Shown here: positions 10,418 through 63,640 of the stretch, in pieces
Position numbering within the stretch: the stretch's first letter is position 1
How the letters are laid out: each line of letters opens with the position of its first letter
Source of the DNA: Halolamina sp. CBA1230
Lineage (GTDB): Archaea; Halobacteriota; Halobacteria; Halobacteriales; Haloferacaceae
Direction: 5' to 3'
Assembly: GCF_002025255.2 (NCBI RefSeq)
Contig: NZ_CP054587.1
Location: 1 to 64,000, forward strand
Length of the DNA: 64,000 nt
Notes under the pieces: generated by a model
Databases searched by the model: none
The model's input: the letters and a program-made list of their open reading frames with translations, nothing else
Told to the model about the DNA's origin: nothing
Position numbers and translations under genes: made by a program

Positions 10418-10740
10418 CGTTAGCCACTGAGACAGCGACCGCGACAGCAACGGTGTCTCGTTCGTAGACTACTTGCGACCGCAGCATGGAGTCCCCACCC
10501 CTCCCCCCGCGCTCGCCAACGTGGCGAGCGCGAGGCGTCCACCGCCACCGCACCGCCGTGGCTGTCGGCGCGAAACGCGAGTCCCTCCGTGGACGAGCCA
10601 GCGCGAGGGACGAGTGAACGGACGTGAGCGAGTCGGTTGGGGAGGTGTGAGGGCTGTGCGGGGCGGTGCGGTCACAAGTGGCCAACGATTGAGCTGCTCT
10701 CGCGGTTGTTGTCGCAGGCGAAACCACCGTCTCAGTACCC
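10418..10740. repeat. Foldback repeat element, copy 1
   Basis: This is the shortest of three related non-coding elements. The left end (10418-10442) matches the other copies. Inner terminal repeats are TACTTGCGACCGCAG (10470-10484) and GCGGTCACAAGTGG (10668-10681), which are largely complementary and extended by imperfect outer complementarity. Conserved internal blocks include GAGTCCCCACCCCTCCCC (10489-10506), a perfect 9-3-9 hairpin (10510-10530, arm CGCTCGCCA, loop ACG), GCGAGGCGTCCACCG, and the right block GGGGAGGTGTGAGGGC (10639-10654). CCTCCCC of the left block can pair with GGGGAGG of the right. There is no coding potential. Confidence 0.85.
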
Positions 10741-21008: not shown

Positions 21009-21067
21009 AGGTGAGTGACGGTTGTTCGATGAGGGGTGTTCGACAGTGATCGCGAGGACATCTCGTT

Positions 21068-21450
21068 CGTTGGCTACTGGGACAGCAACCGCAACAGCAT
21101 CTCGACGCATGACCACTTGTGACCGCAGTGTGTCGGGCACGAGGCCCGACACAGCGCCGAGTCCCCACCCCTCCCCACTCGGGCGCGACCATCGCGCCCG
21201 CGAGGCGTCCACCGGCACTGCACCGCGGTCGCTGTCGGCGCGAAGCGCACGCGGCCTCGTGGCGCGTGTCGGAGTGGGACCGAAGGTCCCACAGGCCGTA
21301 CGGGCGACGCACGGGTCGCCCGTACGACAGCGCGAGGGACGACTGACTGAACGCAGTGAGGGAAGGAGTCGGCTGGGGAGGTGTGAGGGCTGTGCGGGGC
21401 GGTTCGGTCGCAAGTGGTCTACGATCGAAGTGCTGTCGCGGCAGAGCAAG
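21068..21450. repeat. Foldback repeat element, copy 2
   Basis: This is the second copy of the element seen at 10418 and 63073. The left end (21068-21092) differs by two bases from the solo copy at 40484. Inner repeats ACCACTTGTGACCGCAG (about 21112-21128) and CGGTCGCAAGTGGT (about 21406-21419) are nearly complementary. The conserved block GAGTCCCCACCCCTCCCC leads into a 9-3-9 hairpin (21180-21200, arm CGGGCGCGA, loop CCA). Extra hairpins unique to this copy are 21130-21152 (arm GTGTCGGGC), 21274-21292 (arm GTGGGACC, loop GAA) and 21297-21326 (12-bp arm CGTACGGGCGAC). It lies between convergent genes. Confidence 0.85.
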
Positions 21451-21474
21451 CGTTCCTGAACCCCTCGCTTACCG

Positions 21475-38615: not shown

Positions 38616-39671
38616 GTGCACGTCGCGTTCGTCTCCATGGAGACCGCCCACAGCAGCGACCGCCGGGGGCTGGAGCGAGCGCGTCGAACCGCCCGCCTGC
38701 TCGCCGACCACGGGCACGACGTGACGTATCTCTGTTCGCAGTGGTGGGGCGGCGACGCCGTCCCGACGTTCGATCACGAGGGAGTCGAGTACCGCCGCGT
38801 GACCCACGAGCCCGCGACGGGGGCGTTCACCGCGAAGCTCCCGGCCGCGCTGTGGCGCACCGGCGCCGACGTCGTCCACGCGGTTCACGGGCCGCCGCGC
38901 CACGTCGCCGTCGCCGAGAAAGTCGGCACGCTGCTCCGGACTCCCGTCCTCGTCGACTGGTTCGGCGACGGCGCGGCCGAGCCGGGCAGTCAGGAACGCG
39001 CCGCGAACGGGGGGGATCTCGTCGCGACGCCCTCGGAGCTGGTCCGAACGCGGGTCAGGGAGCACGGCGCGAACGACGGCTCAGTGCGGGTGGTCCCGGA
39101 GAGCATCGACCTCGAGCCGGTCCGCGAGGCACCCGTCGACGACCGCTTCGACGTGGTGTACGCCCGCCGGCTGGACGAACACGCCAACGTCGGGACGCTG
39201 CTGCTCGCACTCGCGGAGCGTCGCCGCCGGGACTGGTCGGCGGCGATCGTCGGCGACGGCCCGGAACGCGAGGCCGTCGAGACCGCCGCACGGGACCTCC
39301 GTATCGACGACCGAATCACGTTCACCGGATCGCTTCCGGAGCGCGAGCGGGTGAGTATCTACAAGGGTGCCCACGTGTTCGCCCAGACCGCGAGCGCGGA
39401 GCCGTTCGCGACGGAACTCCTCCGCGCGCTCGCGTGTGGCTGTCTCGGCGTGGTCGAGTACCAGGCCGGCTCCAGCGCCCACGAACTGGTTGAGGGCGTC
39501 GACCGCGGCCGGCGGGTCACCAGCCCGGAGGAGTTGGCCGACGTGATCACGGAGGCCGGGAACGTGCCACGGCGCGAGTACAACGAGTCGTTCGAGCGGT
39601 TCGACCACGACGCCGTGCTCGACACGTACGTCGACTGTTACGAGGGGATCCGGGGAAGCGGGCTGTTGTAG
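38616..39671 (+). CDS. Glycosyltransferase, GT4-like
   Basis: This 351-residue enzyme has a GT-B fold: the N-terminal Rossmann half (MHVAFVSMETAHSSDRRGLERARRTARLL) and the C-terminal half with VVYARRLDEHANV, IVGDGPEREAVE, ITFTGSLPERERVSIYKGA and TELLRALACGCLGVV, the nucleotide-sugar binding end. It likely transfers a sugar in surface glycan or glycolipid synthesis. It starts with GTG at 38616 after a T-rich TATA-like box. The gene ends one base before the stop of the convergent halocyanin, which carries several glycosylation sequons. Confidence 0.85.
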   Translation: MHVAFVSMETAHSSDRRGLERARRTARLLADHGHDVTYLCSQWWGGDAVPTFDHEGVEYRRVTHEPATGAFTAKLPAALWRTGADVVHAVHGPPRHVAVAEKVGTLLRTPVLVDWFGDGAAEPGSQERAANGGDLVATPSELVRTRVREHGANDGSVRVVPESIDLEPVREAPVDDRFDVVYARRLDEHANVGTLLLALAERRRRDWSAAIVGDGPEREAVETAARDLRIDDRITFTGSLPERERVSIYKGAHVFAQTASAEPFATELLRALACGCLGVVEYQAGSSAHELVEGVDRGRRVTSPEELADVITEAGNVPRREYNESFERFDHDAVLDTYVDCYEGIRGSGLL

Positions 39672-61659: not shown

Positions 61660-61874
61660 TGGTTTGAACGTAGCACGCGAGCTCCGTGGTGCCGGCACGG
61701 AGGCCGTCGTGGGTCGCGAGCCGTGTTGGGTTGGACACAGTCACGGCGTAGACTCCGCGCTCGCGGCACGGAGGCCGTCGTCGGTCGCGAGCCGTGACTG
61801 GTTTGGAACACAGCCGCGGCATCTAGCTCCGTAGCCGCGCGACGGAGCGCGCGGCAGTTCGCTCGCCGCGGCTG
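61660..61874. repeat. Array of three about 72-bp palindromic modules
   Basis: The modules share GCACGGAGGCCGTCGT and GGTCGCGAGCCGTG and are spaced about 70-72 bp. The middle one has perfect 10-bp ends CAGTCACGGC (61738-61747) and GCCGTGACTG (61791-61800); the last has CAGCCGCGGC (61811-61820) and GCCGCGGCTG (61865-61874), a 64-bp span. The last matches the module at 40680-40743 in ends and length. It lies in the divergent promoter region of a kinase and a GTPase gene. Confidence 0.85.
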
Positions 61875-61920
61875 GTTGGAAGGAACAGCTTTAACGACGC
61901 CCACGGCGGATTTTCGGCCG

Positions 61921-63033
61921 ATGGGACTCGAGGAGGAGATCGAGGAACTCCGCGAGGAGATCGCCGAGACGCCCTACAACAAGTCCACCGAGAGCCACAT
62001 CGGGCGGCTGAAAGCGAAGCTCGCGGAGAAGAAGGAGAAGCTGGAGAACCAGTCCTCCTCCGGCGGCGGCCACGGCTACGCCGTCGAGAAAACCGGCGAC
62101 GCGACGGTCGCGCTGGTCGGGTTCCCCAGCGTCGGCAAGTCGACGCTGATCAACGCGCTCACCAACGCCGAGAGCGAGACCGGCGAGTACGAGTTCACCA
62201 CGCTCGACGTCAACCCCGGGATGCTCAAGCATCGCGGCGCGAACATCCAGATCCTCGACGTGCCGGGGCTGATCGAGGGCGCCGCCAGCGGCCGCGGCGG
62301 CGGGCAGGAGGTGCTCTCGGTCGTCCGGACTGCGGACCTGGTGGTGTTCATGCTCTCGGTGTTCGAGATCGACCAGTACGAGCGGCTGGCCCACGAGCTC
62401 TACGAGAACAAGATCCGGCTGGACACCGAGCCGGCGAGTGTCTCGATCAGTAAGGGCCACACCGGCGGGCTGCAGGTCACCCTCAGCGACTCGGTGTCGA
62501 TGGACAAGGAGACGATCAAGGACGTGCTGCGCGAGCACGGCTACGTCAACGCCGAGGTGACCGTCCGCGGCGACCCCTCCATCGACGAACTGATCGACGC
62601 GATCATGGACAACCGCGTCTACCTCCCGTCGATCGTCACGGTCAACAAAGCCGACCTGATCGATCAGGACTACCTCCCGACGGTGAAGGAGAACCTCCGG
62701 AGCCACGACATCGACCCCGAGGAGGCGATCTTCATCTCCGCCGAGGAGGAGCGCGGGCTCGACGGGCTGAAAGAACGCATCTGGGAGGAGCTGGGCCTGA
62801 TCCGGGTGTACATGGACAAGCCCGGCCGCGGCGTCGACTACGAGGAGCCGCTCGTTTTGCCGCCGGAGTCGACCGTCGAGGACGCCTGCCTCGACATCGG
62901 CGGCGACGAGTTCCTCGATCGCTTCCGGTTCGGACGGGTGAGCGGGCCGTCCGCGAAACACGACGACCAGCAGGTGGGGAAGGACCACGAGCTGGCGGAC
63001 GAGGACGAACTGCGGATTATTACTCGGAAGTAG
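61921..63033 (+). CDS. DRG/OBG-family GTPase with TGS domain
   Basis: This 370-residue ribosome-associated GTPase has an N-terminal helix-turn-helix-like coiled segment (1-45), a G domain with P-loop GFPSVGKST (67-75), DVPGLIEGAASGRGGG (G3) and NKADLID (G4), and a C-terminal TGS domain (about 290-368) with GRGVDYEEPLVLPP and DACLDIGGDEF. It is conserved across archaea and eukaryotes. The start follows a ctttaacg box by about 30 bp. Confidence 0.95.
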   Translation: MGLEEEIEELREEIAETPYNKSTESHIGRLKAKLAEKKEKLENQSSSGGGHGYAVEKTGDATVALVGFPSVGKSTLINALTNAESETGEYEFTTLDVNPGMLKHRGANIQILDVPGLIEGAASGRGGGQEVLSVVRTADLVVFMLSVFEIDQYERLAHELYENKIRLDTEPASVSISKGHTGGLQVTLSDSVSMDKETIKDVLREHGYVNAEVTVRGDPSIDELIDAIMDNRVYLPSIVTVNKADLIDQDYLPTVKENLRSHDIDPEEAIFISAEEERGLDGLKERIWEELGLIRVYMDKPGRGVDYEEPLVLPPESTVEDACLDIGGDEFLDRFRFGRVSGPSAKHDDQQVGKDHELADEDELRIITRK

Positions 63034-63072
63034 TCGTTTTACTGGAACCGCGAACAGCAATAGCGGCTGGAT

Positions 63073-63545
63073 CGTCGACCACTGAGACGGCAACCGCGAC
63101 AGCGACGGTATCTCGAAGCATGTCCACTTGTGACCGCAGTGCGCCGGACACGAGGTCCGTCATCAGAAATCAAAGATTTCTGATTGGCAGACGAGAATCT
63201 TCGATTCTCGTCGACGGCGCTGGATGGAGTCCCCACCCCTCCCCCCGCGGGCGCGACCGTCGCGCCCGCGAGGCGTCCACCGCGACCGCACCGCTGTGGC
63301 TGTCGGCGCGAAGCGTCGGCGCCTCCGGGCGCCGACCGAGCGCGAGGTCCTCGCGAGTGAAACGAGCGAGGGCACGAGGGAGCTTCGCTCCCTCGGAGGA
63401 CGAACGAGCGAAGTTCTCGTGAACGAAGTGAACGAGAGCACGGCAGAGCTTCGCTCTGCCGGAGCGAGTGAGTCGGCTGGGGAGGTCTGTGGGCTGTGCG
63501 GGGCGGTTGCGGTCACCAGTGGTCATGCTCACTCCGCGGTACTGT
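63073..63545. repeat. Foldback repeat element, copy 3 (longest)
   Basis: Left end 63073-63097, inner terminal repeats CCACTTGTGACCGCAGTG (about 63123-63140) and GCGGTCACCAGTGGTC (about 63509-63524) are almost perfectly complementary. The common slot hairpin is at 63248-63268 (arm CGGGCGCGA, loop CCG). Extra 9-3-9 hairpins are 63163-63183 (arm TCAGAAATC), 63191-63211 (10-bp arm GACGAGAATC with loop TTC), 63375-63395 (arm CGAGGGAGC) and 63441-63461 (arm CGGCAGAGC). It contains the TTGGCAG spacer (63184-63190) seen at 1497. There is no coding gene. Confidence 0.88.
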
Positions 63546-63640
63546 TCGCGGTCGAAATAGCGATTTCTGCGGTGGCGTTCACAGTCGAAACAGCGATCTC
63601 CTCGGTCGCGTTCGCGGTCGGGCTATCGATCTCGTTTCAA
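63544..63640. repeat. Three tandem 33-bp imperfect repeats
   Basis: Units begin at 63544, 63577 and 63610 with exact 33-bp spacing, sharing gttc-c-gtcg and gcgat-tc. In one frame they read as an 11-residue hydrophobic repeat (such as FAVEIAISAVA), but no start codon or complete gene supports coding. They adjoin the right end of foldback copy 3. Confidence 0.65.

Follow-up and report, generated by a model that had tools for sequence, protein, structure and literature searches.

A mosaic palindromic repeat of Halolamina and other haloarchaea that may act as folded single-stranded DNA

What is the gene-free foldback structure near the right end of the first 64,000 nucleotides of contig NZ_CP054587.1 of Halolamina sp. 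CBA1230? This stretch, the window, comes from a 2.90-Mb contig in a 3.47-Mb genome, and its genes are ~88% identical to the loci of Halolamina salifodinae and H. rubra. A sequence-only reading of the window had described a gene-free foldback element with modular hairpins in three copies. That description is right: the foldback elements are real in all three places, and every block that was quoted lies where it had been placed. GAGTCCCCACCCCTCCCC is found exactly at 10489, 21159 and 63227 (0.36 chance matches expected at up to 3 mismatches), and GGGCTGTGCGGGGCGGT has exact matches at 10651, 21387 and 63491. GCGAGGCGTCCACCG alone is not significant in the same chance test; its register with the other blocks is constant. 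The inner ends of all three copies pair, and the three cores score 205, 199 and 185 bits with covariance model R1 (see below). The features are as follows, in window coordinates.

10427..10725, + strand: whole element, copy 1, arms and core (inverted arms, local score 48, versus at most 28 when shuffled; right limit set by eye).
10469..10681, + strand: core of copy 1, enclosed by CTACTTGCGACCGC and GCGGTCACAAGTGG as inner inverted repeats, without hairpin P2 (R1, 205.5 bits at 10466-10684).
10508..10532, + strand: hairpin P3 of copy 1, CGCGCTCGCCA-ACG-TGGCGAGCGCG (covarying helix, 89 copies).
10609..10634, + strand: P6 tandem-GA helix of copy 1, GAC-GA-GT-GA-AC-[GGAC]-GT-GA-GC-GA-GTC.
21031..21455, + strand: whole element, copy 2 (inverted arms, score 44, versus at most 31 when shuffled; right limit set by eye).
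21113..21417, + strand: core of copy 2 (R1, 199.1 bits at 21110-21420).
21338..21370, + strand: P6 tandem-GA helix of copy 2, GAC-GA-CT-GA-CT-GA-AC-[GCA]-GT-GA-GG-GA-AG-GA-GTC.
63064..63610, + strand: whole element, copy 3, the element under study (inverted arms, score 49, versus at most 32 when shuffled; right limit set by eye).
63124..63522, + strand: core of copy 3 (R1, 184.8 bits at 63121-63525).
63159..63214, + strand: AT-rich hairpin module GTCATCAGAAATC..TTGGCAGACGAGAATC.. inserted in P2 of copy 3 (aligned insert; type present 24 times in the genome).
63227..63244, + strand: GAGTCCCCACCCCTCCCC, 5' side of P4, the long closing helix.
63399..63474, + strand: P6 helix of copy 3, with a module in place of the loop; the module has its own GA helix and a GAA triloop.
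63470..63485, + strand: GAGTCGGCTGGGGAGG, 3' side of P4 and class-wide signature.

The number three proved far too small. At least 67 copies are present in the genome, counted among loci taken from it and scored with R1, which was built from 22 compact copies. All 67 lie on the largest contig, the main replicon, a restriction with a chance probability of ~7e-6 as judged from contig sizes. CCACTTGTGACCGC and GCGGTCACAAGTGG limit the core, whose length is 239-251 nt in compact copies and 213-514 nt overall; within it are hairpins P2, P3 and P5, one long-range helix and helix P6. The proposed pairing of CCTCCCC with GGGGAGG survives as a long-range helix but not in that simple form: in the covariation model TCCCCACC pairs with GG-UGGGGA, and CCTC with the GAGG of GCGCGAGGG. 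Similarly, copies had been thought to differ in length only by inserted palindromes. The inserts exist, as hairpin pairs of ~57 nt at three fixed places (in copy 3 they occupy P2, the interval between P5 and P6, and the P6 loop), and thus explain most length differences; 'only' is too strong, as the copy at 10.4 kb has lost P2. The arms outside the core are partly inverted copies of each other. In many copies they consist of tandem repeats that are degenerate and lack a sharp limit, and in the copies at 456629 and 1927738 the left and right arm types are swapped. A weak model match at 39385-39487 of the window lacks the unit signature and looks like chance.

Two kinds of variation deserve mention. 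In variants at 956076 and 1149203 of the main contig (G000:C1; loci L045 9598-9971 and L049 2870-3220), other hairpins replace the 5' half, while P6 and the 3' half are kept. The module TTGGCAGACGAGA..TCTCGTC (63184-63212 of the window) has 24 copies in the genome, of which ~17 lie within elements and ~7 outside; it is present also at G000:C1 68138, 731447, 2131834, 2247781, 2381691, 2502991 and 2679913, and may be a small mobile repeat in its own right. Related stretches are carried by plasmids of Halocatena, Salinigranum and others, and where the whole element matches plasmids, the matching part is mostly the P2/AT-rich module and not the core.

Is the element confined to Halolamina? A search of 99 genomes with R1 found matches in 7/7 Halolamina genomes and in 24 of the 54 genera sampled, the weaker ones including chance matches. 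A strict unit signature, GCGAGGGAYGA-N-RTCGGYTGGGGAGG, is present in 148 of 391 Halobacteria genomes and in 44 of 86 genera, with up to ~75 matches per genome; the exact unit is missing from the other 243 genomes, and the reversed control gave zero matches in the same 391. In a search of a genome collection the signature was found in haloarchaea exclusively among the matches listed, which include Haladaptatus, Natrinema, Halosimplex, Halorussus, Halococcus, Natronorubrum and others. The unit of other genera is ~115-130 nt long and has two hairpins, in the order GGCGCGYGCTG-hairpin-GCGCGAGGGAYGA-P6-RTCGGYTGGGGAGG. Where two units lie close together they are inverted in 22/22 pairs and direct in none, and some plasmids of other genera carry copies. 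We infer that the Halolamina elements are a derived composite of class-wide units.

The element, found in about half of the sampled haloarchaeal genera, is new to Rfam, to the viral and phage collections searched and to the open literature, in keeping with the statement of the sequence-only reading that no haloarchaeal element of such architecture has been described. Rfam cmscan of the window and the locus, at gathering and relaxed thresholds, gave nothing at the gathering score and chance-level matches otherwise. Phage records hold no match to the element and IMG/VR does not hold the unit signature. Searches of open papers by sequence and by words found no description, though subscription literature or ISFinder might hold one; the main text of the RepRanger survey of archaeal REPs is without any 'Halo' term.

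Is the fold itself under selection? In 89 Halolamina cores, a single-strand structure of 69 pairs has 96.2% of its cells paired. Changes on both sides are seen in 42/69 pairs, with 563 doubly changed cells compared with 166 after shuffling; no shuffle reaches any of the pairing measures, and slid versions fail. As this alignment was fitted to the model, the test was repeated without a model on 66 distinct P6 helices from other genera, aligned by their ends only. These are 95.5% paired, versus 61% when shuffled and 26-45% with slid partners. P6 is the conserved heart of the element, a helix of 2-bp steps alternating with tandem GA/GA and usually capped by a GNA triloop. It is built of three Watson-Crick pairs, then GA/GA alternating with two-pair steps (three GA/GA) and a very small loop; there is next to no variation in the GA columns, and the dinucleotides between them covary. 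Strong selection acts on the internal fold as well as on the ends. In several genera the unit has, instead of the simple GA helix, a P6 of a second style, GATGAGNANCGCAG..CGAGNANCGCAATC (e.g. in G215, G218, G308), which resembles a further symmetric code of internal loops.

Which strand folds, and as RNA or as DNA? At inner helix positions of 139 P6 helices (Halolamina and other genera) GT and AC combinations are found in a ratio of 39:7, and in Halolamina P6 alone GT is seen 22 times versus AC twice; helix P2 shows no strand bias (GT 5 versus AC 7). The excess of GT implies that, for P6 at least, it is the + strand of the core that folds. Wobble pairing does not discriminate between RNA and single-stranded DNA, the GT excess being expected equally of RNA. 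The loops may. In the same 139 helices they are GNA in 85, GNAB in 15, GNYA in 13 and GNRA in 4. GNRA is the usual tetraloop of RNA, GNAB is a stable loop motif of DNA as well, and PyGAPu tandem GA pairs are stable in DNA. In published DNA studies, GNA and GNNA loops are extraordinarily stable, with a Tm of 78 C for d(GCGAAGC), and stable mini-hairpins have these loops closed by G-C pairs (PMC4686876). Loop types reported to be extra-stable in DNA thus make up ~113 of the 139, compared with 4 GNRA, and may point to DNA rather than RNA. This balance favours an interspersed mosaic palindromic repeat of haloarchaea, similar to REPs and BIMEs and acting as folded single-stranded DNA, an explanation to which we give an even chance of being right. 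The ViennaRNA parameter sets give no bonus for these triloops, so calculated loop energies do not separate DNA from RNA.

How do the elements behave over time? Comparisons with five sister species found an element in the same intergenic space as one here in 32 of 42 cases, with the core inverted in 6 of the 32 shared sites. Sharing a site does not make two cores more similar than cores from other sites: 0.805 versus 0.799 between this genome (G000) and G004, and 0.742 versus 0.755 between G000 and G003, with flanking genes commonly ~80-90% alike. Shared sites, dissimilar cores and flips together support, as the simplest reading, the persistence of sites whose cores are either swapped by conversion or inverted without leaving the site. 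At the locus of copy 3 itself, G003 has the core inverted between arms of unchanged order. In G002 and G006 the element is absent from this locus, but the neighbouring GTPase-like gene is reversed, so the locus does not represent a clean empty site; neither a clean empty site nor a target duplication was found in the sister-species comparison. One site in G004 (L248) has a rearrangement breakpoint at the element. The neighbouring gene, a probable GTPase by its sequence (61876-63033 of the window), has the same direction in G000, G003 and G004 and the opposite one in G002, G005 and G006. Directly before it, at 61682-61884, are three tandem 58-nt copies (spacing 71-74) of another hairpin repeat, CTCCGTGGTGCCGGCACGGAG..., with matching stretches at many places in the sister genomes.

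The elements are intergenic and lie mostly at the 3' side of genes. With gene arrangement taken from a crude ORF caller, flanking genes are convergent in 25 cases, tandem in 34 and divergent in 6 in this genome (convergent versus divergent, P ~4e-4), and 28, 39 and 15, respectively, in other genera. Orientation among tandem genes has no preference (19 versus 15). A link with replication strand was considered and rejected, as a runs test of the strands shows no clustering along the chromosome (P 0.23 and 0.21). A search for a recurrent neighbour gene as a partner gave small sets of orthologues or members of large families and nothing broader. A unit lies ~120-245 bp from the start of a putative Hel308 helicase gene, in the same orientation, in Halosimplex, Salinibaculum and Natrinema (L128 6393, L152 4062 and L180 5249; three genera of at least two families). 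This might reflect either very old conservation of the site or a hot spot.

Could the element instead be an RNA, one of the explanations offered initially? Transcription of the core would then yield its + strand as a folded non-coding RNA, large and multi-copy, similar to the ornate RNAs or acting in the 3' regions of transcripts, and the copies would represent either RNA genes of one dispersed family or cis elements. Covariation in Halolamina and other genera, the wobble bias towards one strand, conserved unpaired blocks, the position near gene ends and an RNA fold z-score of -7.4 for the core of copy 3 are all consistent with this, and transcription of REPs was argued by the authors of a REP survey from GT pairing and location (PMC3733652). 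But the same core has a z-score of -7.4 with DNA parameters, GNA, GNAB and GNYA loops predominate over GNRA, elements are randomly oriented to tandem genes, and cores flip at their sites. In addition, Rfam has no match, and a non-systematic look at the sequence of the arms and of the core, which is 70% G+C, showed no AT-rich stretch resembling a promoter. An RNA is therefore a tentative alternative, possible but with the odds against it. The other initial suggestion, a non-autonomous mobile element, fares less well. An ordinary DNA transposon of the MITE/foldback or PATE type, moved by a transposase in trans and now decaying, with the arms as terminal inverted repeats, would account for dispersed, gene-free, multi-copy elements with inverted arms. 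It would also agree with the 57-nt module residing both within and outside elements, and Haloquadratum is known to have PATEs as well as small mobile repeats that enter palindromes (PMC3119063). The sites, however, are mostly static, strong selection acts on the internal fold and not on the ends alone, the arms have no sharp limit, and the viral and phage collections searched are devoid of the element. A Y1 transposase (PF01797) is lacking in 10/25 unit-rich genomes, and many unit-free genomes have one, a distribution that rules out a Y1/RAYT enzyme as partner. An ordinary transposon is thus unlikely.

The third suggestion, a chromosome-organising or topology-control site kept for protein binding to double-stranded or cruciform DNA, has a bacterial parallel: in E. 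coli, gyrase, IHF and Pol I are bound by BIMEs. Restriction to the main replicon in this genome, long-term conservation of sites, the units near Hel308 in three genera and the strong inverted repeats are compatible with it. A strand-symmetric cruciform, however, would yield neither a GT excess over AC nor conservation of GA/GA on one strand; moreover, copies are present on some plasmids of other genera and most genomes of the class are without the exact unit. We consider this explanation very improbable.

How does the element compare with known systems? Like REPs, which form opposed pairs and are located between genes that converge or run in one direction (PMC3733652, PMC2817692), it is present in many intergenic copies at convergent and tandem gene pairs, in opposed units, and consists of imperfect palindromes with compensatory changes and frequent GT pairs. 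REPs, however, have a palindrome of 20-40 bp, whereas the class-wide unit here is far longer at ~115-130 nt, has two hairpins and a tandem-GA helix, is archaeal and has no link to a Y1 (RAYT-type) transposase. With the REP/BIME pattern present but the defining enzyme absent, the element is called BIME-like and not filed as a BIME. As to the GTAG/CGTC foot of REPs, the Halolamina core has GGCGTCCACCG; other genera have no consistent foot by eye. Among haloarchaeal sequences, the PATEs, small mobile repeats (SMRs) and SwitchRepeats of Haloquadratum walsbyi would be the closest, judged by their description: they are gene-free and palindrome-rich, small repeats enter their palindromes, and SwitchRepeats have the opposite orientation or another repeat at the same position (PMC3119063). 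They appear to differ in ends and origin, PATEs having near-terminal palindromes akin to the ends of IS605-type transposons, from which they derive, and lacking inverted terminal repeats (PMC3119063), as opposed to the inverted arms and covarying core found here. The large RNAs OLE, GOLLD and ROOL are likewise long, multi-hairpin and covarying, with conserved blocks. They are usually single genes, in contrast to many copies per genome, flips in place, DNA-type loops and no Rfam match. Foldback elements and MITEs share long inverted arms, the lack of genes and a modular interior, but not the species-stable sites and selected interior; neither transposase nor target duplication was found here.

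How might a BIME-like repeat that acts as folded DNA work? We propose that in the cell one strand would fold when the DNA becomes single-stranded during replication, repair or recombination, forming hairpins with motifs that are very stable in DNA, i.e. tandem sheared GA pairs and GNA, GNNA or GNAB loops. The folded strand, or pairing between inverted arms or inner repeats, could create hot spots of gene conversion and inversion, and the same hot spots might receive small hairpin modules. The folded sites would probably be bound by a putative single-strand-processing protein, which may earlier have spread the unit and which would maintain the fold by selection; that the unit dispersed at all is something we infer. 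Taken further, this would be a haloarchaea-wide system of single-strand-folding repeats with its own putative non-Y1 enzyme, in which fixed sites swap or invert a structured cassette. This fuller version is doubtful, but if true it would be the first such family in archaea, with a helix alternating Watson-Crick steps and tandem GA and capped by GNA loops.

A REP-like repeat of this kind would give archaea a counterpart of the REP/BIME system, and a RAYT transposase would no longer be a general requirement for such repeats. The tandem-GA/GNA helix is a strong natural candidate for selection on the shape of single-stranded DNA, and the elements would mark hot spots of inversion and conversion that are relevant to the comparison of haloarchaeal genomes.
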